From the IMG/VR virus record IMGVR_UViG_3300042868_005930, positions 1 through 34,397 of that record: DNA of 34,397 nt; one strand, given 5' to 3'. The notes below the pieces were generated by a model. That model saw nothing but the letters and a program-made list of their open reading frames with translations, made no database searches and was not told where the DNA came from. The translations under genes and the position numbers were made by a program. Source of the DNA: a virus. This document shows positions 880-17,295 of this stretch, piece after piece (positions within the stretch are counted from its first letter, which is position 1; each line of letters opens with the position of its first letter).

Positions 880-1496
880 GCGCTCAAAGTTATTAAATTT
901 ATTTGTTCTTTATAATTTGAATTGACAAAAACATCGAATTCCATATCAGGAAGTATTAAAGTTCCGCCTGCTGGTACATCTGCCGAATACGTGCTATCTG
1001 AATTAAAAACGTGGGCATCCTCACAAGGTACGCGTAAAATACCTCCGTAATCATAACCATTTAAAGGTAAATCACAAATACCATTACTATCCCTTAACTC
1101 TAATGAGAAAGTTAGCACGTGTCCTGCTATCTCATCTTTTCCACGTTCAACAAAAGCACTAATATTTGCGTTTGAAACGCGACCTATTAATGTCCAACGT
1201 TTAGACTTTTTTAATACGTTGAATATATCTCTACAAATTTGAAGCGTGTCCGATTTAGTTTCAACAAGGTTTGAATTATCCTTATATACCTTATCTGCAA
1301 TAACCATCACAAACTGAATGTTTGTATTTAGTTCATTAATGTTTCCACTATTGTAGTCAATAGCTAATAAAGGATAAAGTAAAGACCTGTTTTGAAGTGC
1401 CAAATTAAGTTCACCAAAATAAAAGGAGTTTAGTTGATAGTGAGCTTTCTGAATTTCTTCAAACTCTTTTTGTAATATGTTTATTGTTGTTATCAT
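876..1496 (-). CDS. Probable tail terminator / neck protein
   Basis: 206 residues, not recognised at family level with certainty. The N-terminal half is alpha/beta with a YPLLAIDYNSG stretch, followed by a conserved-looking SDTLQICRDIFNVL segment. This pattern is common in Bacteroidota phage proteins encoded beside the head-tail connector and annotated as tail terminator or neck proteins. It starts by ATGA overlap with the connector gene and ends by ATGA overlap with the fibre gene, so the three are translationally coupled. Inferred role: closes the head-proximal end of the tail tube. It could equally be another neck component. Confidence 0.5.
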   Translation of the reverse strand: MITTINILQKEFEEIQKAHYQLNSFYFGELNLALQNRSLLYPLLAIDYNSGNINELNTNIQFVMVIADKVYKDNSNLVETKSDTLQICRDIFNVLKKSKRWTLIGRVSNANISAFVERGKDEIAGHVLTFSLELRDSNGICDLPLNGYDYGGILRVPCEDAHVFNSDSTYSADVPAGGTLILPDMEFDVFVNSNYKEQINLITLSA

Positions 1497-2017
1497 GCAA
1501 AAACAATATTTACATCTGGTCCTCCATTATCTGGTTTGATTTCACCTAAAGAGTCATCACAAGGATAAAGATAACTGTAATAACTTCCATATTCAGGGAA
1601 AAGCGTATAGTTTAATTTTAAGAACCTTACTAAACGTTCACGATAAAAGTTGTAATCTTTCTTTAAAGTGTTAATAGAGCGGTTCATTTCGCTCTCTGAA
1701 GCATTGTTTACACCTTCTGAACTTACCTTACTTAAACCAATTTGACGAAGTTCTAATGTAGTCATTTCAACTGCTCTAACTTCTACACTTGCAACTAAAC
1801 AAGGTGAAATATATTTATTCAATAAAATTTCTTCATTTGCATTCAAAGTATCGTTATCAACCGCATCTAATAAGTGGTTAAATAATTGACTTCCCAAAAT
1901 CGACTCTAAAACAGTATCTTGTACGCGTGTAATTAAAGTAGAAATTAAAGAGTCATCTACATTTGAACTAATGTAAGATAATTTCTTAAGGTTTGTTGTT
2001 GATATTAAATGAGCCAT
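1493..2017 (-). CDS. Head-tail connector-like protein (DUF6712-like)
   Basis: 174 residues, mostly helical. The opening MAHLISTTNLKKLSYISSN and the following helices resemble the small head-tail connector proteins (gp6/gp15 type) found after the portal or capsid gene in Bacteroidota phages. The start is one base downstream of the portal gene stop, and the stop overlaps the start of the next gene (ATGA). A Tyr-rich segment (YGSYYSYLYP) sits near the C-terminus. Inferred role: ring between portal and tail. The call rests on length, helical character and position, not on a decisive motif. Confidence 0.55.
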   Translation of the reverse strand: MAHLISTTNLKKLSYISSNVDDSLISTLITRVQDTVLESILGSQLFNHLLDAVDNDTLNANEEILLNKYISPCLVASVEVRAVEMTTLELRQIGLSKVSSEGVNNASESEMNRSINTLKKDYNFYRERLVRFLKLNYTLFPEYGSYYSYLYPCDDSLGEIKPDNGGPDVNIVFA

Positions 2018-2018
2018 A

Positions 2019-3908
2019 TTATTGATTTATAATAACTTGAAACCATGTGTGTCTACATGAAGGTGTGTGTACTTTTGTATTTGGGTTAGTGTACCAACCA
2101 CCTTTGTACTCCCAAACATTTCTATCTATACCAGCCGATTTTAAACGAGCTGTAATCATATCAATTTCTTCACGTTTGAATACTTTTTTAGCTGCCAATA
2201 AAGCTTTGCAGAATGGTCTACTTTCACCTTTTAAGGGTGGCGCATCTGTTCTCTCTCTATATTGGTAAACAACTCGAAAGTTTACATTTCCAACATTGCT
2301 TTGACCTTTTGGTGTTAACTCAAAGCCTTTAATCATTCCTAATTTCTCAAGTTCGATTAATTGTTTACTTACATATGTAGCACCTTTGTCTATTGCTTTC
2401 ACGATAGCTCCGTAACTTTCACCGTTGTTAATTAATCCTATTATTTTATTTTGATCTTCTGTTAAAGTGTCAGCAAATTTGTATTTAGAAAGTAATTCTT
2501 TTTCACTCATTTCTAAATTCTTAAAGCTTTTCATTTCTTGAGAATAGATTTCTTTATAGTCAGTCGTTCCGAATTCATTAAACCAGCTTAAAACCGTATT
2601 TTCATCTATTTCGCTAAATGCTTGCCTTGTACCTTGTAATACATCTCCGTTTACAATTGGTGGCAATCCTGCTAAAGCTCTTTGTTCATTGATTGTTAAG
2701 TTAGCTAAAACAGAAGTAGCTAATAAAGGACTCATTTTGTCAATAGTATCAGCTATTTGTGATTTACTTTCAACTTGTTGTGTTAATTGTAAATGTTTCG
2801 GTATAAAAAAGATATTACCAACAAAATTATTAAGCGTATAATGTGCATATTCAAGTGCGTCTGTAATTGTTTTTTGTCTATCTTGAGCGTAATTATTCAT
2901 AAATATTGAATAAGCCGTTTCAAGCTCAGCTGTACCGCCTAATTGACCAGCTGTCTTAACCGAAAATAAAGCGGGATTAATCACTGAATGACCTACCATA
3001 ATCTCGTCAACTATACTTTCTTGAGTTAATAGGTAACGTTGGTCTAAATTATTACCATTAATTTGAACAACACTTGGCGCTGTTTCTTGTGACTTAGAGA
3101 AAGTAACTACAATACCACCTTGTTTATCTCTGTCAGAGCTTTCACCTTTTAATTTAGCTACAATCTTTTTCTTCTCGTCTTGATTGTTTGGCTCACCAGT
3201 TGGCACGTTAATAATTGTCCCACCTTTAAACCCATTCACAACTTCTGAATATCTAAAATAGTTCATTTCAACACTTGCCAAAATTGAACTAATACAACCG
3301 CTATATGATGGAATCGGATAAACTGATTTAGTAAGTTGCTTAGTTCGGTCATCAACTAAATGTTGTTTTGATTTCGCACTAACATATAATAAAACTTCGT
3401 TATCTTGTAAGCTTAATGCTTCTATTGATTTGATTAATTTATATCCTGTCTTTTCTTCGCTTTGGTTTCTTTCTTTCCAATTCTCTGAATATTCGTAATA
3501 CTCTTCATTTGATGATTTTCTAATCAACTCAACTGGAATGTGGTGAGCATCCCAAAATTTAGAGATAGGATTTTTCTTGAATAGAACCGCAAAAGAATTT
3601 AATATTTCTTGATCATTCGCCAACATTACAGCAATCTCATCTAACGAATAAGGTGCGTTTCCGTTCTTCTTTATAAGCTCCCATTTAGCTTTGTCTGTTG
3701 TGTCTGAGTCTAATCCACTTGAAGCAATATATTTCACCTTAGAGTTCACAATTCCTTGGTGTATAGAACTATTATAGTATAGAGATACCAAAAATTGAGG
3801 ATATAAATTATCATTTCCCCAACTGATAAAACTATCACCTCTTTTTTGGTTTTCTACAGGAAGCGGTAAACTTGCTTCGCGAAAAATATATTGATCACTC
3901 ATAGACAT
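2019..3908 (-). CDS. Portal protein with fused winged-helix-like and MuF-like C-terminal region
   Basis: 629 residues. The N-terminal ~430 residues look like a portal: it begins with a WGNDNLYPQFLVSLYYNSS segment, continues with HxGxV-type and GHSVINPALFS motifs, then a long helical crown. After about residue 455 comes a region like a winged helix (core NGESYGAIVKAIDKGATYVS). The last ~70 residues contain SRPFCKALL, GGWY and CRHTW, the Cys/His pattern of Mu gpF/SPP1 gp7-like minor head proteins in this phage group. The portal forms the DNA entry ring in the capsid vertex and docks the terminase. The gene lies downstream of the capsid gene rather than beside the terminase. The start overlaps the preceding ORF by 14 nt. 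Confidence 0.8.
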   Translation of the reverse strand: MSMSDQYIFREASLPLPVENQKRGDSFISWGNDNLYPQFLVSLYYNSSIHQGIVNSKVKYIASSGLDSDTTDKAKWELIKKNGNAPYSLDEIAVMLANDQEILNSFAVLFKKNPISKFWDAHHIPVELIRKSSNEEYYEYSENWKERNQSEEKTGYKLIKSIEALSLQDNEVLLYVSAKSKQHLVDDRTKQLTKSVYPIPSYSGCISSILASVEMNYFRYSEVVNGFKGGTIINVPTGEPNNQDEKKKIVAKLKGESSDRDKQGGIVVTFSKSQETAPSVVQINGNNLDQRYLLTQESIVDEIMVGHSVINPALFSVKTAGQLGGTAELETAYSIFMNNYAQDRQKTITDALEYAHYTLNNFVGNIFFIPKHLQLTQQVESKSQIADTIDKMSPLLATSVLANLTINEQRALAGLPPIVNGDVLQGTRQAFSEIDENTVLSWFNEFGTTDYKEIYSQEMKSFKNLEMSEKELLSKYKFADTLTEDQNKIIGLINNGESYGAIVKAIDKGATYVSKQLIELEKLGMIKGFELTPKGQSNVGNVNFRVVYQYRERTDAPPLKGESRPFCKALLAAKKVFKREEIDMITARLKSAGIDRNVWEYKGGWYTNPNTKVHTPSCRHTWFQVIINQ

Positions 3909-4263
3909 TTATTATAGTAGTTGTATTTGTATATGTTGGGGTAATTGTTTCATCTTCAAAAACTCGTGCTTTCCCTGTTTCACATTCTATTCCAGTTGTA
4001 TAATCTTCGCTTTCTGTTTCCATTTGATATACATAATATGTATAATCACCCAAAGGTAATGTTATATCCGTACCTTCATAAAGGTTAAATAGGTTGTAAC
4101 GTTTTGGTGATGTCGATAAATCGTTTAAAAAACAAAAATACTCTTTTTTTGATTGTTCATTTATAAATCTAAACAACCAATTAATAGCTAATTCTTGATC
4201 AGATTTCTCCGTCAGAGTTAACGCTATTTGATTTAGACTTGCTTTTTCTATTAGACTTAACAT
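3895..4263 (-). CDS. Small virion-type protein of Bacteroidota phages, function unknown
   Basis: 122 residues. A Leu/Thr-rich start (ALTLTEK) is followed by WLFRFINEQSKKEYFCFL, then a predicted beta-sandwich with LPLGDYTYYVYQME and an acidic C-terminus with GKARVFE. This LTLTEK...LFxFxN...LPxGxYxYxVY layout is familiar from Bacteroidota phage structural clusters, where it has no assigned function. It lies between tail tube and portal genes and overlaps the portal start by 14 nt. A beta-rich decoration or neck protein is possible but this is inference. The start could be lower because a small ORF overlaps its first 65 nt. Confidence 0.6.
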   Translation of the reverse strand: MLSLIEKASLNQIALTLTEKSDQELAINWLFRFINEQSKKEYFCFLNDLSTSPKRYNLFNLYEGTDITLPLGDYTYYVYQMETESEDYTTGIECETGKARVFEDETITPTYTNTTTIINVYE

Positions 4264-4363
4264 TTGTTTTCTTTGAAGTTCTAAATTTAACTATTTTTTC
4301 TCCGTTTTTCTCTGAAATTTCAAACAAATTATTTAAAATCTCGTCAATATGTTCTTTTTCCAT
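4199..4363 (-). CDS. Possible small ORF (54 aa), overlaps the next gene
   Basis: ATG at 4363, stop at 4199. The first 35 residues (MEKEHIDEILNNLFEISEKN...) look like a genuine charged helical protein; the last 20 are Lys/Ser-rich and overlap the following gene by 65 nt in another frame. It is the first ORF behind the terminator at 4374-4398. If real it would be a small acidic/basic helical protein of unknown function. It may be only a leader peptide or a chance ORF. Confidence 0.35.
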   Translation of the reverse strand: MEKEHIDEILNNLFEISEKNGEKIVKFRTSKKTNVKSNRKSKSKSNSVNSDGEI

Positions 4364-4373
4364 TTTATAGAAT

Positions 4374-4398
4374 AAAAAAGGGGCTACTTAAAGCCCCT
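4374..4398 (-). terminator. Intrinsic terminator after the tail tube gene
   Basis: On the minus strand a 7-bp stem (AGGGGCT / AGCCCCT, positions 4398-4392 and 4385-4379) with a 6-nt loop is followed directly by TTTTTTATT. It lies 12 bases after the stop of the tail tube gene. It should end or thin out transcription before the portal block. Confidence 0.85.
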
Positions 4399-4410
4399 AA
4401 TTAATAGTTA

Positions 4411-4935
4411 TTAAGATAATAATGTAGTCACAATAGAACCACCAATTTTCGGTGCGTTTAATTTTTCTCTACCTACAAATGATAAAGTCACACCATTCAT
4501 ATCTTCAAACTTAGTTCCTGTAGTTCTTGAAAGGTTAAATTTCAAACCTTTATCAATTCCTAACACTTCATAAGTACCATCATTCAATTTAGCAATCAAA
4601 CAAACCCTGTCTTTTACCAAATTTTCAAATTGTTGAATGTTAGCAGCAGTGTTGCCTGAAAGTTTAATGTTTCCTTGGATGTCAAAACCTGTTGAAGCGT
4701 TTTCACGTGTACCAATAGAAGCTACAGTGAAATCACTCATTTCAACATCAACTAATACTTCATAAAACAATTTAGCTCCTACGTTAGCCATAGCTGTTAT
4801 TTCACCATTTGTACGAGTGTATGTATAATTAGCAGCTCCTGTTGCTTCATCTCTCAAAGAACCAACATACCACTTATCTACACCACCAGCACTATCGCAA
4901 TTTAATGCACCAAAACCTGAAGTTAATTCACACAT
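4411..4935 (-). CDS. Major tail (tube) protein, probable
   Basis: 174 residues, beta-rich, with a 'VLVDVEMSDFTVASIGTREN' stretch and a conserved-looking end (SFVGREKLNAP). Length, beta content and position two genes before the portal and immediately after the major capsid gene fit a tail tube protein. It is bracketed by intrinsic terminators (4947-4972 upstream, 4374-4398 downstream), as expected for a protein whose dosage is tuned separately. The gene product would polymerise around the tape measure protein. An alternative is a capsid decoration protein; no decisive motif separates the two. Confidence 0.55.
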   Translation of the reverse strand: MCELTSGFGALNCDSAGGVDKWYVGSLRDEATGAANYTYTRTNGEITAMANVGAKLFYEVLVDVEMSDFTVASIGTRENASTGFDIQGNIKLSGNTAANIQQFENLVKDRVCLIAKLNDGTYEVLGIDKGLKFNLSRTTGTKFEDMNGVTLSFVGREKLNAPKIGGSIVTTLLS

Positions 4936-4946
4936 ATATAATAAGT

Positions 4947-4972
4947 TTTAAAAGGGTAGCCTAAACTACCCT
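4947..4972 (-). terminator. Intrinsic terminator/attenuator between capsid and tail tube genes
   Basis: On the minus strand AGGGTAG (4972-4966), 6-nt loop, CTACCCT (4959-4953), then TTTAAAA. The 7-bp stem is perfect but the U-tract is short, so partial read-through to the tail tube gene is likely. There is no obvious TAnnTTTG promoter between it and the next start, so the next gene must depend on read-through. Confidence 0.7.
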
Positions 4973-4982
4973 ATGTTAATAA

Positions 4983-5951
4983 TTAAGCTCTTTTTACTCT
5001 TACAAAGTATTGAGGGAAAACGTATTGAACACCCAAACGGAAAGATGTATCTACTTTCAATTTTTCGTTATAAGAATCGTATTTAATATCGAAATTCTCG
5101 TCTTCGCGTGAATCAGTTCCTAAAAATACTAATGATACAGGCACTGCAAAGATTTCGTTTGAAGCGTCTAATGCAGGCACTGTCAACACTTCTACGTTAG
5201 TTTGTGGTAAAGTGAAACGTAAAGCACCACCTTCGTTAACTGGTTGAATTCTATCGTATGGATTTGAAGTATTCCAAGCTGCGATGATGTTTAAAGCTTC
5301 AGTACGACCAGTGTAAAGAGCAATATCCATTTGGTTGTCGAAAATCTCAGCAGGAATTTTAGTAAACACTTCGTAAGCAGCGTCGTATGCGTTTGTGCTT
5401 GTGATAGTAGCGTAAGTAGTAGTAGTTTTTAATACTGCTGTATCTGCTTTCAATGCTTTAACTAAACCATCAAAATGTACTAAATCTGGATCCAATGAAG
5501 CAGTATCACCTAACCATACTAAACGTTCAGCTTTCTTTTGTAACATCTTAGTCAAGTATGCCATTAAGATAGTCTCAAGCGGTGCAGGAAGTTGACCTTC
5601 TTGGTTTTTCATACCTAAAGCATTCAATACTTGCGTCATTTTAGTATTCAAAGTTTCATTACAAAACTCAACCCCCATATATAAAGGCTTAGTTGTTAAA
5701 ACTTTCTCAGTGAAAACAACAGAACCATCAGGTGAAGGTGTACATGCTGCCTTAGCTTGTAATGCTACTGAAGAAGATAAAAGAGCAATTTCTCTTGAAC
5801 CTTTCACACCTTCCTCTAACATTAATTTGTCTAAGAAAGTAGAAGTAGATAATAAATCTGCAGTGATGTTTGGAAGGTTGTTGTCTTTCCAAGCTGCTAA
5901 ACCAGATACATCGTATCCAAATTTTTCTTTTAAAGTTTTTTGTAATCTCAT
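4983..5951 (-). CDS. Major capsid protein (HK97-fold, probable)
   Basis: 322 residues. Follows protease and scaffold genes and is itself followed by a terminator, the usual setting of a capsid gene. The N-terminal ~40 residues are charged (MRLQKTLKEKFGYDVSG), then a helical and beta mixture; the later part (RTEALNIIAAWNTSNPYDRIQP and a beta-rich C-terminus ending VQYVFPQYFVRVKRA) looks like the P- and A-domains of Bacteroidota phage capsid proteins. Forms the icosahedral shell. Assignment combines context and overall character; there is no single catalytic motif to check. Confidence 0.75.
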   Translation of the reverse strand: MRLQKTLKEKFGYDVSGLAAWKDNNLPNITADLLSTSTFLDKLMLEEGVKGSREIALLSSSVALQAKAACTPSPDGSVVFTEKVLTTKPLYMGVEFCNETLNTKMTQVLNALGMKNQEGQLPAPLETILMAYLTKMLQKKAERLVWLGDTASLDPDLVHFDGLVKALKADTAVLKTTTTYATITSTNAYDAAYEVFTKIPAEIFDNQMDIALYTGRTEALNIIAAWNTSNPYDRIQPVNEGGALRFTLPQTNVEVLTVPALDASNEIFAVPVSLVFLGTDSREDENFDIKYDSYNEKLKVDTSFRLGVQYVFPQYFVRVKRA

Positions 5952-5959
5952 TTTGTTTT

Positions 5960-6448
5960 TTATTTTTTAGTTAATATTTCTTTCACAGTTAAAGATTTGA
6001 ATTCTTCAACTTTTTTTCTTTCGTCTTTAAATTTAGACTCTTTTACATTTGCCAACTCATTGAATTTGTCTTCTAATGCTTTAAATCTTTCATCAATGTC
6101 ATTGATAATTTTTTCAGTCATAGACGAAAATTCTTCTTTAGACATCATCTCAGGTGCAACTGTTTCTTCTGTAGTTTCTTCAGACATTACTTCTTCTAAT
6201 GCAGTAATAACACCGTTTACGTCAACAGAAACAACCCAAACCTTATCCTCGTACTCAACTTGGAAATCACCTTCAGGTGCAGGGATTTGGTTTTTTTCTA
6301 CGTCTAATACAAAAACAGGAGTACCTACAGCCAAGTCACCTTCATAATATAAAGTGATGCCATCGATTGTTTGAACTTCTGAAAATGCAATCTTTACTTC
6401 CTCTTCTTTCTTGAAAAAATCGAAAATAGATTTTACTTGTTTGTTCAT
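5960..6448 (-). CDS. Capsid scaffold-like protein
   Basis: 162 residues in two parts. Residues about 20-85 form a beta-rich unit (DGITLYYEGDLAVGTPVFVLD), and residues about 88-155 are a charged coiled-coil (SMTEKIINDIDERFKALEDKF). It stands between the protease (6 nt away) and the capsid gene (8 nt away). Acidic N-terminal domain plus coiled-coil C-terminus between protease and capsid is the classic scaffold position. Inferred role: internal scaffold removed during prohead maturation. Confidence 0.65.
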   Translation of the reverse strand: MNKQVKSIFDFFKKEEEVKIAFSEVQTIDGITLYYEGDLAVGTPVFVLDVEKNQIPAPEGDFQVEYEDKVWVVSVDVNGVITALEEVMSEETTEETVAPEMMSKEEFSSMTEKIINDIDERFKALEDKFNELANVKESKFKDERKKVEEFKSLTVKEILTKK

Positions 6449-6454
6449 ATTTAT

Positions 6455-6976
6455 TTATTTTAGTTTAAGTTCTATTTGTTCGAATAAGCCTTCTACACTA
6501 TACCCACTAAATTCACCTTTCTTAATTTTATTCCAAATTGTAGGATTGTCAACTTTATAAGACCTTATCCAAGTCCCAACTTGTAAATTAAAAGATGCAA
6601 ATTGTTTAGGTATTTGTTTTAAGTCGGTAATAATGTAATCGGATAACATTCTAACACCTTCTATTACTCTATTTGAGTCGTGTTCGATATTCACGTTGTT
6701 TGCAAAGCCTAATTTCTTGTTTTTCTCTCTAATTACCTTTATAGTTTTAGGTTTGAACAATACGTATCTATCTGGATTACTTCTATAAATAGGTGTATTT
6801 GCACTAATCATTACACCTGTTACAATTCTTTTTTCTTCATTAAATACAAAGTGTTCTTTAACGTCCTTATTGAATGCAAAATAAGGTTTATTATGTGCAG
6901 GTCGCAAAACAAAAGAGTTGAAATCTACTCCTGTTTCATCGTTCTCGTTTACAACTAATTCAAAAAAAGGTAACAT
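6455..6976 (-). CDS. Prohead protease, XkdF/S78-like
   Basis: 173 residues. Motifs such as FVLRPAHNKPYFAFN near the start, IVTGVMISANTPIYR, NIEHDSNRV in the middle and GTWIRSYKV...GEFSGYSVEGLFE at the end match the XkdF (PBSX) / phage prohead protease type of Bacteroidota phages, with the His of EHDS and downstream Ser as likely active residues. It should cut scaffold and capsid N-terminus. First gene of the head block, right behind a candidate promoter and direct repeats (6979-7016). Confidence 0.7.
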   Translation of the reverse strand: MLPFFELVVNENDETGVDFNSFVLRPAHNKPYFAFNKDVKEHFVFNEEKRIVTGVMISANTPIYRSNPDRYVLFKPKTIKVIREKNKKLGFANNVNIEHDSNRVIEGVRMLSDYIITDLKQIPKQFASFNLQVGTWIRSYKVDNPTIWNKIKKGEFSGYSVEGLFEQIELKLK

Positions 6977-6978
6977 TT

Positions 6979-7016
6979 ATGATTAGATTTTAGTCAAATT
7001 TAATGATTAGATTTTA
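6979..7016 (-). promoter_or_regulatory. Candidate head-block promoter between two direct repeats
   Basis: A 14-base direct repeat (ATGATTAGATTTTA on the plus strand) occurs at 6979-6992 and 7003-7016, 24 bases apart. Between the copies the minus strand carries TAAATTTG (7002-6995), which fits the Bacteroidota -7 element TAnnTTTG. No TTG sits at the usual distance upstream. It lies exactly between tape measure and protease genes, so it may drive the head block and carry an operator. Inference from sequence only. Confidence 0.45.
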
Positions 7017-9230
7017 AATAGTTGAAATTAATTCAGTTTTTTTCGTTTTTTCTTGCATTTTCGTTATATCTGAGTCAACTACTACTACCTTATAAGTACT
7101 CTGCGCTTGTATTTCTGTTTGCGTGCCTTGTGTAGTGTTATTTTGAGTTTGTTCGGTTGGTCTATTAATTGTAGGTGCTTGTACACTTGGCATAGGTGCG
7201 TTTAATATTTGTTTCGCTGAACTCATTGCTTTTGTAACAGTAGCAACACCTGCAGCAATATAACCACCTAACACAAACGGAGCAGCGGGACCAGTAGCCG
7301 CAGCCGCAGCAGTAGCTCCAGCAATTGTAGCAGAAAGTGATTTAGCAGTATCTATTGACAATTGAGTGATAGCAAAAGCTTTTTGAACGGCACTTCCTTG
7401 CTCTGATAATCCAGCCAAAGCTCCAAACATATTAGCGGTTTCATCTAACAAGAATTTTTTAGAGTTTGCAAGTTCTTCATCTAACATTTTTTGCCTCTCA
7501 GTTGAATCCTTTGAAATATCTAAAAGATTTTTTTCATGGTTAGCTTTTAATAATTCTAATTCGCCACTTGTTAATTCTGTGTTAGCTTTCTTTTGTTGAT
7601 AATCTAAGTTTTCTAACTCAATTCTTTTTTGTTGTTTTAAATTGAAATCTTCTTCAGCACGAATAATCTCAGCTTCAAGTTGTGCCTTTTTACTGGTGTT
7701 GTCTTCTTGTGTTTTTTTTGCTTCTTGTTGTTTTTTTAAAGCTACTCTATCAGCTTCTTGTTGAGCATCCAACTCAGTCATTAAAGCATCGTATTTTTGT
7801 TTTAATGCTTTTTTGCCTTCATATTGCTTCACAAGTTCTTCACGTTCTCGGTCATGCTTTAATTTCAAAGCCATTATTTCACGTGTGTTCACATCGTCAA
7901 TATTGGCAACTGTTAAATCTTCTAATCTTCTTTGAAGTGCTAAACGTTCCTGAGCTTCTTTTTCAGCTTCTTCTTTAAGCCTTGCTCTACGTTCTTTTTG
8001 TTTGTTTATAGCTTCATCATTTGCTTGTTTTGTTTTTGCTTTTTGGTCATCAATATCTTTTTGTCTATCTGCTTTGATTTGTTGGTTATATTCAAATTGA
8101 TCATTCTTAAGCTTAGTTAAAGTTTGATTTAATTCTTTTACTTTTTGTTGTTGTGCTTTTGCTGTTTCTTCATCCCCAAATAATAAACGACCTGTTGCGT
8201 TGAAACCTATCTTATCAAAAACTTCTACTATTTTTAAATTCTTTAATTGTTCATCGTAAACTTTTTTTGAAGCTCCAATTTCTTTTTCAGTTTTATCTAT
8301 TGCATCTTTAAAACGCGCTTTTCTTTTATTGCTAATTTCTTCTTCTGTATAACCTAAACGTTTTAATGTTCTTTCATATTCATCAAAATTATCATTTGCG
8401 ATTCTTGCTGCTTCAGCTTGTTTTGTTGTTGCTTGTTCAAAATTTTTTGCACTGGTTAAACTTTGAGTCATTGAACTTTTGAGTTTGTCAAAATTTGCTA
8501 TTAAATAGCCTATTGCTATCATTAATGCACCTATTCCTGTTGATGCAATTGCACCTTTTAAACTTGAAAAAGCACCTACAACAGTTGTTTTTATTGTATT
8601 AGCAAAACTCTTAAACATTGGTAATGCAGTTCTAATACCTTCTATACCTTCAGCAAGTGCCATCGCTGATTGTACTTTCAACAATGTTTTTTCAAGTTCT
8701 TCACTTTCCTCACCAAACAAAGCCGAAGCACCCTGTACTAATTGAAAGCCTGATGCTGCACCTTGAATTGCTCCTCCTAATTTTTGCGTGAAAGTTTGAG
8801 CAGCACTATCTACTACTTGATCAGTTTCAATTTGTGTTTGTCTATACCTCGCAACTGTTTCTAACAAGTCTTGATATTCCTTTGTGTTTTGTTTACCAGC
8901 CAAAGCTAACTCGTAAAGCCTATCTTCAGCTTCACCCATTCTTGCAGTTAGTGGTTGTAACTCTCCGTATATATCCTCGAATTTGGCATTAACATCTGTT
9001 GCCGCCTCGCTTAATTCTTGGTACGATACACTTAAGTTATCCAATTTCTTTTTGGCGTCTTCTACCTCTTTAGAATTAGCTCCAAATTCCTTAGATAGTT
9101 TTTCAACTTCTTGCTCAGTATCTTTAATTGACTTTCTTAAGGTGTCAAACTCCTTATCTATTGAAGCTACTCTCGAAGCACTATCTCCTGTGTCAACTCC
9201 TACTTTAAAAATTATTTCTTCTTGTGCCAT
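7014..9230 (-). CDS. Tape measure protein
   Basis: 738 residues, by far the longest coiled-coil protein here. Residues 1-130 are heptad-rich; two hydrophobic stretches follow, one around residue 230 (GIGALMIAIGYLIANFDKL) and one around residue 650 (Ala/Gly-rich, ending PFVLGGYIAAGVATV); in between is a long Glu/Lys/Gln coiled coil. This layout is that of siphovirus tape measure proteins, which set tail length and help deliver DNA across the membrane. The start overlaps the stop of the 52-codon ORF (TAATG). Read from the terminase it comes before the head genes, which is unusual. Confidence 0.9.
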   Translation of the reverse strand: MAQEEIIFKVGVDTGDSASRVASIDKEFDTLRKSIKDTEQEVEKLSKEFGANSKEVEDAKKKLDNLSVSYQELSEAATDVNAKFEDIYGELQPLTARMGEAEDRLYELALAGKQNTKEYQDLLETVARYRQTQIETDQVVDSAAQTFTQKLGGAIQGAASGFQLVQGASALFGEESEELEKTLLKVQSAMALAEGIEGIRTALPMFKSFANTIKTTVVGAFSSLKGAIASTGIGALMIAIGYLIANFDKLKSSMTQSLTSAKNFEQATTKQAEAARIANDNFDEYERTLKRLGYTEEEISNKRKARFKDAIDKTEKEIGASKKVYDEQLKNLKIVEVFDKIGFNATGRLLFGDEETAKAQQQKVKELNQTLTKLKNDQFEYNQQIKADRQKDIDDQKAKTKQANDEAINKQKERRARLKEEAEKEAQERLALQRRLEDLTVANIDDVNTREIMALKLKHDREREELVKQYEGKKALKQKYDALMTELDAQQEADRVALKKQQEAKKTQEDNTSKKAQLEAEIIRAEEDFNLKQQKRIELENLDYQQKKANTELTSGELELLKANHEKNLLDISKDSTERQKMLDEELANSKKFLLDETANMFGALAGLSEQGSAVQKAFAITQLSIDTAKSLSATIAGATAAAAATGPAAPFVLGGYIAAGVATVTKAMSSAKQILNAPMPSVQAPTINRPTEQTQNNTTQGTQTEIQAQSTYKVVVVDSDITKMQEKTKKTELISTI

Positions 9231-9388
9231 TATAATGAAGCTATATAATCGTTTATAATTGTTTCTTGGTTAAAAATTTCTGCTGAAACATCAGCGTTCA
9301 AAACTTCATTACCTATTCTAATAATGTTTGAATAACTACTTTCAACATATGTGTAAGCACCTCTTACCTCTTGTATTACTTCTATCAT
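9230..9388 (-). CDS. Small protein (52 aa) between fibre and tape measure genes
   Basis: ATG at 9388 overlaps the stop of the upstream gene (ATGA), and its TAA overlaps the tape measure start (TAATG), so it is locked into the operon at both ends. The sequence (MIEVIQEVRGAYTYVESSYS...) has normal composition, a VEVIQEV-like strand and an acidic C-terminus. I do not recognise a family. Overlap at both ends is the main evidence that it is real. Probably a tail-assembly accessory protein by position only. Confidence 0.7.
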   Translation of the reverse strand: MIEVIQEVRGAYTYVESSYSNIIRIGNEVLNADVSAEIFNQETIINDYIASL

Positions 9389-10416
9389 GACAAACAATTT
9401 AAAGTTAATTGACTAATATCAAAACTACATGCGTTTGACGAGCTTCCAGACGTTCTGCATGCTTGGATAGTTATGGGTGTTGTATCACTTGGTAAATTTG
9501 TTGTTATAGAACCTTCAACTATAACATTATTTTCCAAAGAAATTGCTTTGTAATATACAGTATTAGAATTAAAAGGGTTGTAGATTTCAAATACAAAAAA
9601 ATCACTTGCCACATCTCCAGAAGTTCTATTCGCAGGGAAATTAGAACCTAAATCAATTTTAGTACAAGTTCCAGAACCATCGTTGTGAAATATTTGTAAA
9701 TTAGTATCTGTTGCATCTGAGCCAATTCCGATAACATTCAATAAGCTTTCAACCGTTACAGTAGAAGATAAACCTAAAGAAGCTGTTGATGCAGTCATCC
9801 CATAGAATTGCCTTGCTCCTGAGTTGTAACCTGTATCAGACACACCAAATGCGACACACATTCTAAAACCTATATTAATAAAATTAAAAGCTGAAGTTGA
9901 TCTATAGCCACAAAAACCATTTGTAGCAGGCGTGGACACTCTAATTCTTAATCTTGTTTTCTTCTCTTGTATAGATGCAGTTGATACAGATACAGCTACT
10001 GCAGTTCCTAAGAGTGTACCTGTTGCAATATTCTCAGCCAATACAGTTGTTGAGTTATGTTGCGCTCTATAACCTCGTGCAATTTCATCACTTTTAACTG
10101 TCCAATAATTTTCAGCTACTAATTTAGCATCAATTTGATTTTCTACAGCTTGAGTCGTTGGATACTTTGTGTTATTAATTACAGAGAAATCATTCGCTTT
10201 ATTGGATAATATTTCAAAGCTTGCTACATCGTAAATAACTTCTTCTATTCCTGTTGATGTTCTTGTATAAATACTCCCTGTTGTTGTATTCATATAGAAT
10301 TCACCAATATAAATATCCGTTGCTAACCAACTACCATCTCTATGGTCGTTTGAAGTTGGAATCGTAGGAACTCCAGCCCCTTTCTTAATTATTATTCTTC
10401 TTGTTTCATCACTCAT
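9385..10416 (-). CDS. Tail fibre / virion adhesin-like protein
   Basis: 343 residues. The N-terminus (TRRIIIKKGAGVPTIP, then GSWLATDIYIGEFYMNTTTGSIY) is typical of Bacteroidota tail proteins that start with a 'RIIIKKG' element and a GEFYxNTTTGxIY grid. A YPTTQAVENQID segment repeats the module seen in the fibre gene at 1-879. The C-terminal ~200 residues are beta-rich with many Ser, Thr and Asn and few charges, ending in Cys-containing strands. Likely a distal tail adhesin. Start overlaps the preceding gene by 8 nt. Confidence 0.6.
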   Translation of the reverse strand: MSDETRRIIIKKGAGVPTIPTSNDHRDGSWLATDIYIGEFYMNTTTGSIYTRTSTGIEEVIYDVASFEILSNKANDFSVINNTKYPTTQAVENQIDAKLVAENYWTVKSDEIARGYRAQHNSTTVLAENIATGTLLGTAVAVSVSTASIQEKKTRLRIRVSTPATNGFCGYRSTSAFNFINIGFRMCVAFGVSDTGYNSGARQFYGMTASTASLGLSSTVTVESLLNVIGIGSDATDTNLQIFHNDGSGTCTKIDLGSNFPANRTSGDVASDFFVFEIYNPFNSNTVYYKAISLENNVIVEGSITTNLPSDTTPITIQACRTSGSSSNACSFDISQLTLNCLS

Positions 10417-10999
10417 TTATCAAAATTTTAGAATTTTTACTTATACCATTTATTCCCCCTAACATTTTATATACATCTTCATCAGCATTATTCACACCAC
10501 CATTTAAAATCGGTGCATCTATACTTGATAGGCTCATTCTTTCAATCGTTATTTCATCGGTTAAATATAATTTACGTACAGGAATTGACGACCTAAAAGA
10601 AGTCTTTGCAGTTGTTGAAATTACTCCTGTGTTTGTATGAATAGAATATGCGTTGTTAGTATCATATTCAGTAGAAGTCCATAAATTCAAACCTAATAAA
10701 GGCACGTAACCGCCATTGTAAATAGCTGTCATTTCTTCTGTGCTTGGAAGATACCAATCATTATAACCGCCTAAAACTAAATCATTACAATATTTAGCAG
10801 CAGTAACAGTTACTCCACTTATATCTACAATTAATGTAGTGTTAAATTCGCCTGTATATGTATCAGTTGATCCAATTAAAACACTATTAGAGTATCTTAT
10901 GTCTGCAAAATAATATGTATCATTCGTTGGTATATCATTTTGATATATCATCAAATCATAATCTTCATTATAAGGAATCGTTATTGTACCTGCAGCCAT
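10409..10999 (-). CDS. DUF1566/C-type-lectin-like tail protein
   Basis: 196 residues. Residues about 68-145 match the DUF1566/Lcl pattern: AAKYCNDL, GGYNDWYLPS, LWTSTEYDTNNAYS, SFRSSIPVRK. This fold is a C-type-lectin relative that is often found at the surface of phage tails and bacterial adhesins. The start overlaps the previous gene stop by one base. Likely contributes to host binding at the tail tip. I see no reverse transcriptase nearby, so it is not obviously a diversity-generating target. Confidence 0.65.
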   Translation of the reverse strand: MAAGTITIPYNEDYDLMIYQNDIPTNDTYYFADIRYSNSVLIGSTDTYTGEFNTTLIVDISGVTVTAAKYCNDLVLGGYNDWYLPSTEEMTAIYNGGYVPLLGLNLWTSTEYDTNNAYSIHTNTGVISTTAKTSFRSSIPVRKLYLTDEITIERMSLSSIDAPILNGGVNNADEDVYKMLGGINGISKNSKILINE

Positions 11000-13212
11000 T
11001 AACCTAAGTATTTAAGAAGTTCAACTTGAGTCGTTCCATAAGCATCTAAATCAAAATCTTTTATTGTGTTTAGTCTGTAAAGTATGCCATCAATCATTTT
11101 CAATTTTGAGAAATCTAAATCGTGAATATCTTTGTAGTTTAGTTTCAAGTATAAAGATAGTAATTTAGAATTTTCTGATGTCATTTCATTTACAAATCTT
11201 GCATGGTAATAGTCGTACGTGTTCTTTTGATCAGGTATAACCTGCAAACCATCAAAGGTATAATTACGTGAGCTGAAGTGTAAATCAAATAAAGGCTCGA
11301 AATTTTGATTTTCTCTATACCTTATGTGATGTGTGAAAGGATATACAGTGTAAGTCGTTTGAGTATCATCATTTGTATTCCTTATTGTTATAGGTTCTGT
11401 TCTAAATCCATTGTAAAAAGTAAGCATTCCTTTCCCTTTATACGGTTTTATTGTCTCTTTTCCTGTCGTATCTATTGATTTATCTATTATTAAAGGGTAA
11501 ATTAAGTTAGTATTCTCCACTTTATAAGGTACATATGTATTAAAAGGTAGCTCAATCTTAACATCGCCAGCAGCCCATGTGCTTAATTGAATGGATTTTT
11601 CACCATAATTTAAACCTGTTAAACGTTTATATTCGTTGTTTAAGTAGTCTTTTTCCTCTGAAAACTTATAAACGTAGTTAGAACCTTGCACGAGTGAGTT
11701 ACTTTGTATTGTTATTTCTCTTTGATTATCTACTTTATCCGTCCAATCATCGTAATTTGAAGGTGATTTATAGTAGTTATTAAACGTATCAATGTAAATA
11801 GTAGACTTGTTTGTAACTACATTATAAATCGGATCACTCATGTAAGCATAGAACAAGTTCATTATACCCTTTAAAAACTCTGAACATTTTATATCAGGCA
11901 ATGAATTGTTTAAAGTTATTGGAGATCCATCGACAATAGTATCTCTTGCAGTCAATGTTAAATGTATATCATTTACATCTACTGTGATTATTGAGCCATC
12001 TTTTTTGTTTAGAAAAAATAAAATGTTAAATGTTAATTTTTGACCTGCTTTTAAATTAAGGTTTGGATTTAAAGAGATTGAACACAAAGTGCCATTAGTC
12101 ATAGTTCTCCTTGTTGTTCTTGTCAATACCCCATCAACGTATATTTCTACTTCATACGAGCCAGCACTATTAATCCCTGCATGAGTATATATCAAATTCC
12201 CTGACAAATTTATGTCATAAATACCGCTTGCATTTATAGTTAATATTCCTGTTGTTGTGTTTATATAATTAATATTTTGCGTGGGTGGCGCAGTAAACGA
12301 AATATCTTTAAATATGTTATACGCACTATTAAATTCAAAATGTTTAAATTGTTTGTTTCCGTTTAGGTCGGTGTAATATCTTGGATAACCTGTTATTGTT
12401 TGTGATAATATATCTCCATCCGCTTCAACCTTCATGTCGTTTGAATATGTTGAATTCAGCTTCATTACATCGCCACCGCCAAAACCATAAATCAACTTTT
12501 GCATATTAGCACTCGTAAAGAATGAAGTCGTATAATCTACTTCTATATTTTCACCCTCTAAAGCTTCGTTTAATATCTTCTTAATTGCTTCTTTAACGTA
12601 TACAAATGGATATAATTGATTTGTTCTAAACGTAGAAGTACTCGGCTTATTATACCCATAATCTACTATTGGATAAATATACCCAAATGATTGAGGTTGA
12701 TATCCATATGAGTCAGCTCCGAAATTACGTGTAAACACTCCGTTAACGTGTACGCCTTGCATCCATGTATTAACCACGTTATCCCTTGTCAAAGTGTGAT
12801 CATATTCACTCCAGTCTAATTCATTGAGTTTCTTCTCTTTAAGCTTAGCGAATATATCAACCGCATCACTGAATAACGTACAATCAAAGTAGTAGTTTTT
12901 ATCTTGAATAATAACCTCGTTTAGTTTCAACTTACCTTTGAAAATTAGCAAGTCATTCTTGTAAAATTCACAAGGGTTACGGATAGCAGGATTAAATGAA
13001 ACGTTTGAACTCTGTAACACATCCATTGACAAAGAATAAGCACTCATAAAGAATTGCATATTGTTCGAAGTACCTTCTAACTTTATAGATTTAGAATAGC
13101 TTCTTTTACGCTTTTCAGGCTCTTTAACATCACTTATTGACAAGTTCAAAGGTACAGCTATATTCTCTGATAAATCAAGCTCTATGCCGTTTACAATTAG
13201 TTTTGAATTCAT
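10999..13212 (-). CDS. Large tail tip / baseplate protein
   Basis: 737 residues, beta-rich with many Asn, Tyr and Thr. The opening (KLIVNGIELDLSENIAVPL, then SISDVKEPEKRKRSYSKSI) is the characteristic start of a large tail-tip protein of Bacteroidota phages; the body is a series of beta domains with a central CSEFLKGIMNLFYAYMSDP segment. Position between distal tail protein and lectin-like proteins supports a hub or baseplate role. No enzyme motif is seen. Overlaps both neighbours by 1-4 nt. Confidence 0.6.
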   Translation of the reverse strand: MNSKLIVNGIELDLSENIAVPLNLSISDVKEPEKRKRSYSKSIKLEGTSNNMQFFMSAYSLSMDVLQSSNVSFNPAIRNPCEFYKNDLLIFKGKLKLNEVIIQDKNYYFDCTLFSDAVDIFAKLKEKKLNELDWSEYDHTLTRDNVVNTWMQGVHVNGVFTRNFGADSYGYQPQSFGYIYPIVDYGYNKPSTSTFRTNQLYPFVYVKEAIKKILNEALEGENIEVDYTTSFFTSANMQKLIYGFGGGDVMKLNSTYSNDMKVEADGDILSQTITGYPRYYTDLNGNKQFKHFEFNSAYNIFKDISFTAPPTQNINYINTTTGILTINASGIYDINLSGNLIYTHAGINSAGSYEVEIYVDGVLTRTTRRTMTNGTLCSISLNPNLNLKAGQKLTFNILFFLNKKDGSIITVDVNDIHLTLTARDTIVDGSPITLNNSLPDIKCSEFLKGIMNLFYAYMSDPIYNVVTNKSTIYIDTFNNYYKSPSNYDDWTDKVDNQREITIQSNSLVQGSNYVYKFSEEKDYLNNEYKRLTGLNYGEKSIQLSTWAAGDVKIELPFNTYVPYKVENTNLIYPLIIDKSIDTTGKETIKPYKGKGMLTFYNGFRTEPITIRNTNDDTQTTYTVYPFTHHIRYRENQNFEPLFDLHFSSRNYTFDGLQVIPDQKNTYDYYHARFVNEMTSENSKLLSLYLKLNYKDIHDLDFSKLKMIDGILYRLNTIKDFDLDAYGTTQVELLKYLG

Positions 13213-14441
13213 AGTCTTATAGAGTTTTCAGGTGTAAATTCAATTTCTACTATCTCATTAAATAGCTCATCGTGTTTATCCTGTTTGATTTGATAGCTCG
13301 AATTAGTGATAATTACACTTTCATTTTCTTCACCTTCGTTAATATACACTGCTGGAGAGTCATATAATTGAGTCAACCAGTTTTGAGTAGTTTCATCTAA
13401 CCAATCTGAAATCAATTGTAATTTCTTAGTAGTTTGTTTTAGGTAGCTTAACCTTCCTGTATTGGCTTTACTTAATGAATATACACCATTACTCCAACTT
13501 CCTTGTGAACGTTCAAACTCAAATGATTTTACGCTTGCTGAATATCTCTTGTTATACGTGAATAGATAATTATCATAAGCTCCATATTTATTCATGAATC
13601 TCAAAGTAGCTCCATTGTAAAAACAAGTGTTGTCAAAATACAGCCATGTTAAGCATGACAATGTTCCATTTGAAGCATCTAATAAAACTATCAGTACACT
13701 TGTACAACTTGCAGCTTCACTACTCGTTAAATAGCCTAAACTTACATGTTGATCTAAGTTGAAATAAATCGAACCTAATAAACCTTGATTTCCTGTGATA
13801 AAGTTTTCATCCGTTTGTTTAATTATTGTAGCGCCGTTGTAATAACTATATCTTACTTTGTAGTTGGCAGGTGTATCTATTGTGGTGTTATCTATCCATG
13901 TATAAGTTAAGCTATCTTCTTTCTTTATTGTTTGCTCGTATAGATTGACAGTTGAACCATATAACCTATAAGATCTATCAGTTAACAATTGCTTTGTCAA
14001 TCCTTTTTGATAGTCGGTGTAATCCCAATTCAAAAATTCAGAACGTGAAAGCTTACCTTTATACACGCCAATTTGACTACTCGTAGCCGGTGTTGGGTTT
14101 ACAGAAACAGAACCGTTTATTGTTGTCGAATATTTTTCGTAAACATTTACAGAAATGAATCTGTATCCATCAGGATCAAATATAGTTGCTGAATTTATAG
14201 GTTTAATATTTTGAGTAGGTATGTAAGGTGCTACTATATTTGATACATCGTATTTCCCATAAACATACGTTGCATCTTCATCCTGAGGATAAACTTCATA
14301 CATTCCAACACTTCCCTCAACAATCACCTCAATAACAAATGACATATTAAACTTGCCACTTATAGTTTGTTTAAACTGGAAGATAATAGGATTATCCGAA
14401 GGCGTTGCATACGCTGGTTGCTGTGTAATTGATATTGCCAT
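13209..14441 (-). CDS. Tail protein, distal tail-like
   Basis: 410 residues. Begins AISITQQPAYATPSDNPIIF, a start seen in Bacteroidota tail proteins next to the large tail-tip protein. It is beta-rich, with a WDYTDYQKGL region and an end (FNEIVEIEFTPENS) that looks like the closing strand of a distal tail domain. It follows the gp10-like gene with a one-base overlap and overlaps the next gene by ATGA. Inferred: joins tail tube to tip. Function is from context. Confidence 0.55.
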   Translation of the reverse strand: MAISITQQPAYATPSDNPIIFQFKQTISGKFNMSFVIEVIVEGSVGMYEVYPQDEDATYVYGKYDVSNIVAPYIPTQNIKPINSATIFDPDGYRFISVNVYEKYSTTINGSVSVNPTPATSSQIGVYKGKLSRSEFLNWDYTDYQKGLTKQLLTDRSYRLYGSTVNLYEQTIKKEDSLTYTWIDNTTIDTPANYKVRYSYYNGATIIKQTDENFITGNQGLLGSIYFNLDQHVSLGYLTSSEAASCTSVLIVLLDASNGTLSCLTWLYFDNTCFYNGATLRFMNKYGAYDNYLFTYNKRYSASVKSFEFERSQGSWSNGVYSLSKANTGRLSYLKQTTKKLQLISDWLDETTQNWLTQLYDSPAVYINEGEENESVIITNSSYQIKQDKHDELFNEIVEIEFTPENSIRL

Positions 14442-14992
14442 TATGTATTAGGTTTTTTAATTATCGTTATTATAGATTCTTTTATCAGTGCTGAAATAGG
14501 TTTAGACATTTCTTCCACTCTTTGAGGTGTTACAACTTTATCGTAAAAGTGAGTCGCTTCAATACCATCTGTAACTAATCTCTTTTGGATAGCATAAGCA
14601 AGTCCATCATGTGTGCTACCTTGTGGAATTGGAATACCTTTATCATAAATCCATTTCTTAATAGCATCATGAAAAGACAAACCAGTTTTAGGTGCTTGAC
14701 CGTGAGTTGGTGCGCCTCTATTTATTATAGTACCATTTACACCGTAGTTTATATACTTCCAATAAAACGGTGCTGTTACTTCAATACTCTTTGGATTTAT
14801 TTTACTCGGTATAATTGATTGCTCTAAATTCCCACTTGCTCGATTCTTTTGTAGCTCTTTTCGTAAATCAACAATCAACTCATTCGTTAAGTCTAATAAT
14901 AGTTGCGACAAAGGGCTATTAGCTGTATTAGATAATATACTTTCAGCTTCTCCAAAATCTAATTGTCCTACTATATCAGCTTCATTTACCAC
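14441..14992 (-). CDS. HK97 gp10-like tail completion protein
   Basis: 183 residues with a GTG start; ATG starts are not available nearby in frame. Contains the features of HK97 gp10/tail completion proteins: a helical N-terminus followed by SIEVTAPFYWKYINYGVNGT, a GAPTHG loop, then FHDAIKKWIYDKG and further helices. The start lies inside the last codons of the -1 frame extension of the upstream chaperone-like gene. Likely part of the head-tail interface or tail terminus. Confidence is moderate because the family is diverse. Confidence 0.6.
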   Translation of the reverse strand: MVNEADIVGQLDFGEAESILSNTANSPLSQLLLDLTNELIVDLRKELQKNRASGNLEQSIIPSKINPKSIEVTAPFYWKYINYGVNGTIINRGAPTHGQAPKTGLSFHDAIKKWIYDKGIPIPQGSTHDGLAYAIQKRLVTDGIEATHFYDKVVTPQRVEEMSKPISALIKESIITIIKKPNT

Positions 14993-15730
14993 GTTGTATT
15001 GTCTTTATTTCTTGTTGTTTTTCAAAGTTAATAAAATTTAACCTATGATTGAATTTATAAACATTCCATTTTACTATGTCTTCCCAACTGGTATTATATT
15101 CCTTGCTTAAAAAGTGTATTACCTTTTCCCACGTATAGCGAGAAGATTTCTTATCAACCTTATTTTCATCTTCTTTTGGCTCTCCGTAAAGTTCTTTGTT
15201 AATACGATTGATTGTCGCAAAAAAAAACTAACCACGTTCAAGTAGATAGGTAGTGGAATGTGTTGTTTAAATATCTTTTCACGTTCCTGGTTTGAGTAAA
15301 TCATATTCCCATTTTGGTCCAAGTCTCCGTAGTTCGTACCCTTTTCGATATACATTAATGCTACTAACCTTGCTGGGTTCGCTTGCATATCTGAGTTGCT
15401 TACATCTATATGCCATCCAACACCAACCTTTTTAGGATCTACTAACTCATACTTTTGTTCTAACACTTCAATCTCTTTATCAGGCTCTGTTACTTTGTAG
15501 TTCTCGAATAAACCTATACAATGAACGTAAATATCTTTTAGCTCACTTATATTCACTTTCTTTAATTCGTTTACCGTACCGCTTGTAAGCACGCTTAAGA
15601 ATTCGATTATGTCATTCAAGTCCAATTCACCTGTCGTAAACTTTGGATTAGTTAGAGCTTGTAAATGTTCAATCCTTAAGTCATTCATTGACTTTGGAGC
15701 CTTTATATTAATATACTTCAAAATACCCAT
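14982..15730 (-). CDS. Frameshifted long form of the chaperone-like protein (249 aa, -1 shift at 15219-15227)
   Basis: Reading 15730 to 15221, slipping back one base in the T9 run (15227-15219), and continuing gives 170 + 79 = 249 residues ending at TGA 14984-14982. The extension has no stop and looks like real protein: a charged linker (EPKEDENKVDKKSS) then a helical unit with YTWEKVIHFLSKEYNTSWED and WNVYKFNHRL. That layout, a charged linker plus a short helical domain added by -1 shift, is the gpGT arrangement of siphovirus tail assembly chaperones. The other shift (+1) stops within ten codons. An indel error in the homopolymer is the alternative. Confidence 0.65.
15119..15730 (-). CDS. 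Tail-assembly-chaperone-like protein, zero-frame (short) form
   Basis: 203 residues in the zero frame. Residues 1-170 form a plausible, mainly helical protein (PKSMNDLRIEHLQALTNPKF, then LSVLTSGTVNELKKV). The last 33 residues after the T9 run are basic and of poor quality, as expected of out-of-frame reading. It overlaps the large terminase gene by 23 nt and precedes tail genes. In lambda-like phages the corresponding G protein helps assemble the tail around the tape measure protein. The family call is inference from architecture and place. Confidence 0.55.
   Translation of the reverse strand: MGILKYINIKAPKSMNDLRIEHLQALTNPKFTTGELDLNDIIEFLSVLTSGTVNELKKVNISELKDIYVHCIGLFENYKVTEPDKEIEVLEQKYELVDPKKVGVGWHIDVSNSDMQANPARLVALMYIEKGTNYGDLDQNGNMIYSNQEREKIFKQHIPLPIYLNVVSFFLRQSIVLTKNFTESQKKMKIRLIRNLLAIRGKR
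15219..15227 (-). promoter_or_regulatory. T9 slippery run, probable -1 frameshift site
   Basis: Nine T on the minus strand, with zero-frame codons AGT TTT TTT TTG. Slipping one base back opens 79 more codons. U-rich runs of this length support either ribosomal -1 slippage or polymerase slippage. Confidence 0.6.
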
Positions 15731-16907
15731 TGCTTATTGTTTTAATTGATTGCACTGCTAAAGCTAACGACATTACACCATCATCATGTACACCTTGAGG
15801 CGCGCCGTATTGCACTCTCCTGGTCTTTTCATTGTATACATAAGTGAATGCGTTTAATTCATCTATCAGCCAATTTTGGTTTAATACTTTTATTTCTTTG
15901 TTCTCGAATAACACGGATAGATCTTCAATCATTATAGGCTTAGACTTTACCGAAGTAACATAAGGTTCTACAAAGTTGTATATTCTATTTTGAAGCATCT
16001 CAAAGAATACATCTCCTTGGTTGTTTACTTCTACCATTACCTTAGCATTATAATGCTTTATAACTTCTGAAACTTCATCTATTATCTTTGACCATTCTAA
16101 ATGTCTCCAACGATTAACGTATATCATTTCATAGTTAGAATTCAAAATAGTTAGCACCGTGTAATCGTCCGCACGCCCTATATCTAACCCTCCGTATAAG
16201 TTACCTTTGTTTTCTGTACCTTCAAATACACAACTATCTACATTCTTAAACAACCCACTTGCATTGTCTATAAACTTCGCTAAATATTCCTGTTCAAATA
16301 TATGTGAGGGTAGGTTTCTTTTCCTTTCTTCTAAGTCATTTGGATCAATCATAGGATTGTCAAAGGATGTATAGTGAAAGTACTTATATCGTTCATCGTA
16401 GTTAGGTTGTAGACTCATCTTGTAAAAATGATTCTTACCTTTTGGCGTGGATATAAATATAACCTTTTTACCCTTTACTAATACAGTTGCACTTAGTACC
16501 TCACTCCATAACTCCGCACGTGTAAAGGCATACTCATCGATAATAAGATAATCGAATGTGTTACCTCGAATATTATCTGGCCGTTCACCAGAAAAGAATT
16601 GTATCTTACTTCCTAAACCTGTTATCGTTAAATCTGACCTGTTATATTGGAATAGTCCACTTCGAGCTGTTACACCCTCCATTTCATCAAATACCTTCTT
16701 AGATTGTTTGTAGATAGGAGTTACCCATGCAATATTGCACCCTTTGTGGTTAATAGCCCAATAAAGCATTTGGTTAATACCTAACATTGTCTTTCCAAAC
16801 TGCCTACCGATATTTAAAACATAATACTTATACGCCTCGTTGTTTATCGAGTGGTGTATTAGTCTCTGTTTCTCGTGGGGCTTATAACCTTTAATCGTTG
16901 CCATCAA
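15708..16907 (-). CDS. terL: Terminase large subunit
   Basis: 399 residues (or 398 from the second Met). Walker A is GRQFGKT at 34-40, Walker B LIIDE at 121-125, and coupling motif FISTPKG near 151-157. The nuclease part begins with GGLDIGRADD near 239-248 and has HDDGVMSLALA near 374-384, giving the acidic metal-binding residues of the RNase H-like fold. It packages DNA into proheads, binding the portal. Follows the small subunit with a 17-nt overlap. Compact for the family but both domains are present. Confidence 0.95.
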   Translation of the reverse strand: MMATIKGYKPHEKQRLIHHSINNEAYKYYVLNIGRQFGKTMLGINQMLYWAINHKGCNIAWVTPIYKQSKKVFDEMEGVTARSGLFQYNRSDLTITGLGSKIQFFSGERPDNIRGNTFDYLIIDEYAFTRAELWSEVLSATVLVKGKKVIFISTPKGKNHFYKMSLQPNYDERYKYFHYTSFDNPMIDPNDLEERKRNLPSHIFEQEYLAKFIDNASGLFKNVDSCVFEGTENKGNLYGGLDIGRADDYTVLTILNSNYEMIYVNRWRHLEWSKIIDEVSEVIKHYNAKVMVEVNNQGDVFFEMLQNRIYNFVEPYVTSVKSKPIMIEDLSVLFENKEIKVLNQNWLIDELNAFTYVYNEKTRRVQYGAPQGVHDDGVMSLALAVQSIKTISNGYFEVY

Positions 16908-17295
16908 AGTCGAATCTCTCGATTATAGTTTGCTCTATTTGTTGTTTGTCGGTAAGACCATTTAATCGTTGTGTAATACTTGGATTATATTGACCTACCA
17001 TACCGCCTTCAATCTGATCCTGTCTTATTTCTTCTTTTATACGTGAACAGATAGGTCGATATTCTTCATATGCTTTATCTGTATTATCTAAATAATGTTT
17101 GATGCTTCCTATTTCGTTATAGCAAAAGTTTTTGAAACCTTCAATAGTTAAAGGCACTCTTAAAGGAACTGGAACTACATTACCTATTTTATCTAATTGA
17201 TAATTGTAACGTGGATTTTCGTGTACTTTGTTTCTGTACTTTTCAAATAGTTCCCAAAGTTTCTCTGGAGTTTCTATATACTTATGCTTTGCCAT
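16891..17295 (-). CDS. terS: Terminase small subunit-like DNA-packaging protein
   Basis: 134 residues, helical. A conserved-looking TIEGFKNFCYNEIGSIKHYL segment in the middle and the GQYNPSITQRLNGLTDK motif near the C-terminus match small packaging subunits of Bacteroidota phages, which often contain a 'YNPxIAxRLxGLxDK' stretch. It should recognise the packaging site. It overlaps the large subunit and starts five bases after the preceding gene. Confidence 0.75.
   Translation of the reverse strand: MAKHKYIETPEKLWELFEKYRNKVHENPRYNYQLDKIGNVVPVPLRVPLTIEGFKNFCYNEIGSIKHYLDNTDKAYEEYRPICSRIKEEIRQDQIEGGMVGQYNPSITQRLNGLTDKQQIEQTIIERFDFDGND

Follow-up and report, generated by a model that had tools for sequence, protein, structure and literature searches.

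A small gene beside the terminase gene of a tailed phage carries nine consecutive T residues, past which a second reading frame stays open in the −1 register. The locus raises three linked questions: whether the run is a programmed switch between two protein products, which machine would slip on it, and what the products would do. The gene lies on the minus strand of a metagenomic IMG/VR virus record of 34,397 bases, which is referred to below as the window.

A nine-T run and two overlapping reading frames

An earlier note had described the nine-T (T9) run, an open −1 frame of 79 codons reaching 14982, about 33 poor zero-frame codons after the run, and an end of the −1 frame within the start of the following gene. 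All of these are borne out by the sequence (Table 1). The T9 run is the sole A/T run of nine or more in the window, and the zero-frame codons across it are GTT AGT TTT TTT TTG CGA, with the stop of that frame ~33 codons further on. The short product comprises a conserved N-terminal domain of ~170 residues before the run and a poorly constrained tail of ~33 codons after it. The stop of the −1 frame lies 11 nt within the next gene. The −1 extension consists of a charged linker and a Trp-containing helical unit, the helices being taken from the model of a relative. Since no ATG, GTG or TTG is present in the −1 part of the window, this part is probably read via a change of frame only. Translation in the standard frame would yield the short protein of 203 residues, and a fraction of expression would yield a fused protein of ~249 residues, the last 79 of them encoded in the −1 frame.

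The gene, hereafter the shift gene, adjoins the terminase as the same note had claimed, and its start overlaps the end of TerL. The tape measure gene is indeed not its direct neighbour; the tape-measure-like gene lies five genes further downstream. The structural genes on the minus strand (876-17295) stand in an unusual order: TerS, TerL, shift gene, tail genes, tape measure, protease, probable capsid gene and portal. The order in the cultured Nonlabens phage P12024L is similar, and there too the portal and the genes preceding it lie at the opposite end of the record, past the tail genes. Among the genes of the window, the product of the one at 10409-10999 weakly resembles the Lcl_C domain (PF07603, E 1.4e-7, narrowly missing the cut-off) and is possibly a receptor-binding part.

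Table 1. Features of the shift gene and its neighbourhood (window coordinates).
Feature	Coordinates	Strand	Basis
Terminase large subunit (TerL), directly upstream, overlapping the start of the shift gene	15708-16907	−	
Zero-frame ORF, short product of 203 aa	15119-15730	−	ORF list, translation, relatives
T9 run, predicted shift site	15219-15227	−	sequence, alignments of relatives
In-phase heptamer T_TTT_TTT inside the T9 run	15221-15227	−	
−1 frame extension, 79 codons and stop	14982-15221	−	sequence, relatives
Next gene, possibly a tail completion/neck protein (weak; phrog_5, E 0.12)	14441-14992	−	
Probable tape measure protein, 738 aa (several tape measure PHROGs, best E 1e-4)	7014-9230	−	

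Conservation of the run and selection on the −1 frame

An IMG/VR protein search retrieved nine closest relatives, and all nine contain the exact T9 run and both frames. The wider family was gathered with TerL, the following gene and a distant relative as queries, followed by iterated profile searches. The two-part gene was found in about 180 loci, which include 130 sequences that are distinct around the run and fall into 61 clusters at 90% nucleotide identity. The run consists of nine T in 115 of the 130 distinct sequences and of ten T (T10) in the other 15, and no run shorter than nine T was found among them. The homopolymer expected of a transcriptional slippage site, nine or more A or T, is therefore present in all 130. 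With respect to the reading frame, the run occupies one of three registers, namely phase 2 (that of the window), phase 1 or phase 0, and it is retained in phages of 54-57% GC. Wherever both parts of the gene are readable, the C-terminal part stands in the −1 relation to the N-terminal part, the exception being contig L086. A set of 50 representative loci (460 kb) has 71 A/T runs of at least nine, and 49 of these are the shift site itself.

Two further observations concern run lengths. In the 50 representative loci, A/T runs of at least eight in coding DNA are scarcer than the trend of the shorter runs suggests: the ratio for the step from seven to eight is 0.21, compared with 0.36 for the step from six to seven. 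The T10 subgroups (loci L140, L142, L143, L153, L155, L157, L165, L172, L176 and L188) hold the −1 relation by means of different flanking codons.

We analysed which frame is constrained by counting variable sites by codon position in the window gene and its nine close relatives. Ahead of the run, zero-frame third positions account for 113 of 152 variable sites. Past the zero-frame stop, third positions of the −1 frame account for 22 of 28 (binomial p 1.2e-6, with sites treated as independent). The overlap region between the run and that stop has 12 of its 24 variable sites at −1 third positions and 7 at zero-frame third positions. The third-position bias thus moves to the −1 frame past the run, indicating that the −1 frame is translated and that the zero-frame tail is under little constraint.

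These data bear on two simpler explanations. The first is a homopolymer error in sequencing or assembly, the true run being ten T and the gene one continuous frame. The metagenomic origin of the window would be compatible with such an error, and contig L086 (2818-4661), the sole contig of its subgroup with T10, does have one continuous frame. However, the TerL gene of L086 lacks about 25 codons and changes frame at that point, and because of this second lesion the contig is probably faulty. In addition, T9 recurs in ~115 distinct sequences drawn from numerous samples, two cultured phages also have it, and the substitutions obey two frames. We give the error explanation practically no credence.

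The second explanation is that the C-terminal part is a separate protein, made from its own start or by re-initiation with no frame change. The cultured Nonlabens phages P12024L and P12024S have the same gene after TerL, with T9 and the −1 frame, and their records annotate it as two separate hypothetical CDSs; in some relatives, moreover, codon 33 of the −1 part is a GTG. Against this stand the missing start codons in the window, the constraint on the −1 frame already ahead of the zero-frame stop, and the C-part profile, which starts at the run in most loci. A separate protein would also leave the invariant run unexplained, and we regard it as very improbable. Judged from the sequences, the T9 run is a real switch maintained by selection and not a chance homopolymer. 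The comparison among relatives yielded no single uninterrupted frame (the faulty-looking L086 aside), 9 or 10 T in all distinct sequences and a conserved extension, and the programmed −1 extension proposed in the earlier note is strongly supported by this conservation.

Polymerase or ribosome as the slipping machine

The switch had been assumed to work by ribosomal frameshifting. An in-phase heptamer of the X_XXY_YYZ type, as T_TTT_TTT, is present in all representatives and speaks for this assumption; the minimum run of nine and the undetected stimulators speak against it. A purely ribosomal mechanism would involve tandem −1 slippage of tRNA-Phe on U_UUU_UUU with the transcript length unchanged, as in lambda G/GT. 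Known G/GT frameshifting is ribosomal (PMC5009743), and U_UU.U_UU.U and U_UU.U_UU.C give more than 0.10% frameshifting in E. coli even in the absence of stimulators (PMC4066793). However, seven T would be enough for ribosomes, and at least nine are always retained. There is no excess of stem-loops on either side of the run (mean z near 0, for a search covering stem-loops only). A Shine-Dalgarno-like motif lies upstream of the run in 4 of the 50 representative loci, and none of the 47 genes of the window has one; the window genome likewise offers no stimulator of the Shine-Dalgarno type. Finally, the third Phe codon of the −1 frame is TTT in all 18 phase-2 representatives, where TTC makes up 9-55% of Phe codons. 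The chance of an all-TTT outcome is ~0.001 as a product of codon usages, a value that is not corrected for relatedness. We hold a purely ribosomal switch to be possible but somewhat doubtful.

Alternatively, RNA polymerase would slip on the nine T, giving ten-U transcripts for ordinary translation. On stretches of nine A or T, the bacterial enzyme slips very efficiently (PMC5009743). One point for this mechanism is that the run is never shorter than nine; on the other side, the conserved Phe and Leu residues around the run explain part of its length. Because the run is at least nine long and stimulators are not detectable, transcriptional slippage is at least as likely as the ribosomal route, and RNA polymerase slippage is the mechanism that we favour, with modest confidence. 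The two kinds of slippage may both contribute.

Slippage on a run of nine A/T with no other apparent signal, leading to products with and without a C-terminal extension, is also the arrangement of Thermus dnaX and of Shigella mxiE and spa13. The present case differs from those in that the gene belongs to a phage tail region and in that its slippage is putative.

A candidate tail assembly chaperone among hypothetical proteins

The earlier note had compared the gene with lambda gpG/gpGT. The comparison holds for the architecture: overlapping frames in the −1 relation with a conserved shift site and extension, a short and a fused product, a shift near the end of the first ORF, and a small gene among tail genes. 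It does not extend to the site, where the T9/T10 run replaces the lambda slippery site and is accompanied by no stem-loop excess, nor to the sequence, in which no similarity is detectable. The position differs as well. A chaperone gene customarily lies between the major tail protein and tape measure genes, and the shift gene stands after TerL, five genes before the tape-measure-like gene.

Structure prediction gave a weak indication in the same direction as the architecture. The fused protein of L086 was modelled with a pLDDT of 78.7, and a distant relative's N-terminal domain, for which the alignment was deeper, with a pLDDT of 93.5. Both models match a large set of uncharacterised phage proteins, and their best named structural neighbours (BFVD) are tail assembly chaperones: those of Arthrobacter phage Kitkat (E 0.019, probability 1.00), Bacillus phage 019DV002 (E 0.021), ctCpR1 (E 0.11) and ctgFB34 (E 0.54). 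Foldseek against the PDB returned no significant match. The HK97 chaperone 2ob9 appears as a weak row (Z 2.2, rmsd 4.5, 77 residues aligned, model residues 84-174), a likeness at the level of unrelated rows whose score does not support homology. The remaining VIA structure rows were rejected as common helical arrangements. Comparison by hhalign with two Arthrobacter phage chaperones, which represent one actinophage chaperone family, detected no similarity, the two-sequence profile being of low power. A tail-protein PHROG is matched weakly in three relatives.

The tape-measure-like protein leads one to expect a long tail and hence a chaperone, of which this protein would be the client, and none of the other window genes was recognised as a candidate for that role. 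Of the two lambda parts, G binds the tape measure and T the major tail protein (PMC5009743). By analogy, the shared N-terminal domain would chaperone the tape measure protein, and the extension would recruit tail tube subunits.

A programmed two-product gene could also serve another function, for example as a head or packaging factor beside the terminase. The place directly after TerL, here and in relatives, is consistent with such a role, as are the PHROG of unknown function under which the family is listed and the lack of a significant match among solved chaperones. However, the best named fold neighbours are tail assembly chaperones, the weak PHROG matches are to tail proteins, tail chaperones typically have a two-product −1 architecture, and the window offers no other recognised candidate; a different function is therefore unlikely in our estimate. 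We conclude that a programmed two-product, chaperone-like gene is probable whichever machine slips, and that the shift gene quite probably functions like gpG/gpGT, as judged from its architecture, its tail-gene setting and the weak structural matches. Because the fold match is weak and the position is not the customary one, we do not file it as a proven member of the chaperones.

No annotation of the family goes beyond hypothetical protein. Scans of the window protein against Pfam and PHROG gave no match, and tblastn of it against annotated phages also gave none; P12024L was reached only with the protein of a relative as query. In the P12024L and P12024S records, no link between the two frames is given. 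These two phages and phrog_32199, which is listed as of unknown function, share with the window the same gene, T9, the −1 frame and the gene neighbourhood. Among 36 aligned relatives, 28 match phrog_32199; the window protein has no direct match to it, and relatives such as L045 match the iterated profile derived from the window (E 3e-36). Pfam matches of the −1 extension were dismissed as chance (best E 0.0016, below the curated cut-off), and PDB sequence matches were likewise taken as chance.

The host is probably a member of the Bacteroidota. The upstream regions of the window genes are A-rich at −10 to −14, a Bacteroidota pattern, and this assignment draws on such starts devoid of Shine-Dalgarno motifs together with the hosts of relatives. 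It is kept at this strength because a genome scan with TerL gave a single useful contig, from a Chitinophagaceae MAG, which also has T9.

G/GT-type frameshifting and nine-T slippage are each already known. In the open-access literature we found no case of a tail chaperone expressed by transcriptional slippage, and no combination of a chaperone-like gene, an obligatory T9-T10 run and a terminase-adjacent place. A further-reaching reading, which we hold to be somewhat less likely than not, is that a tailed-phage group that is large, mostly uncultured and probably infects Bacteroidota sets the ratio of two tail assembly chaperone forms by polymerase slippage, in place of ribosomal G/GT frameshifting, on a T9-T10 run that is obligatory and lies in a terminase-adjacent gene. 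If the switch is transcriptional, the slipping rate of RNA polymerase, and not slippage of the ribosome, would govern tail assembly, and a classic problem of stoichiometry would be solved in a different way. A family known only as hypothetical proteins proves to be one programmed two-frame gene across diverse phages, with P12024L as a cultured model. The gene would escape annotation that looks for a chaperone directly ahead of the tape measure gene.

A distant relative of the N-terminal domain is present in Flavobacterium phage 6H (L199, KC959568; 10047-10927), at 10352-10927. It has neither T9 nor a clean −1 path, and the gap that follows it contains an unannotated ORF in another frame.
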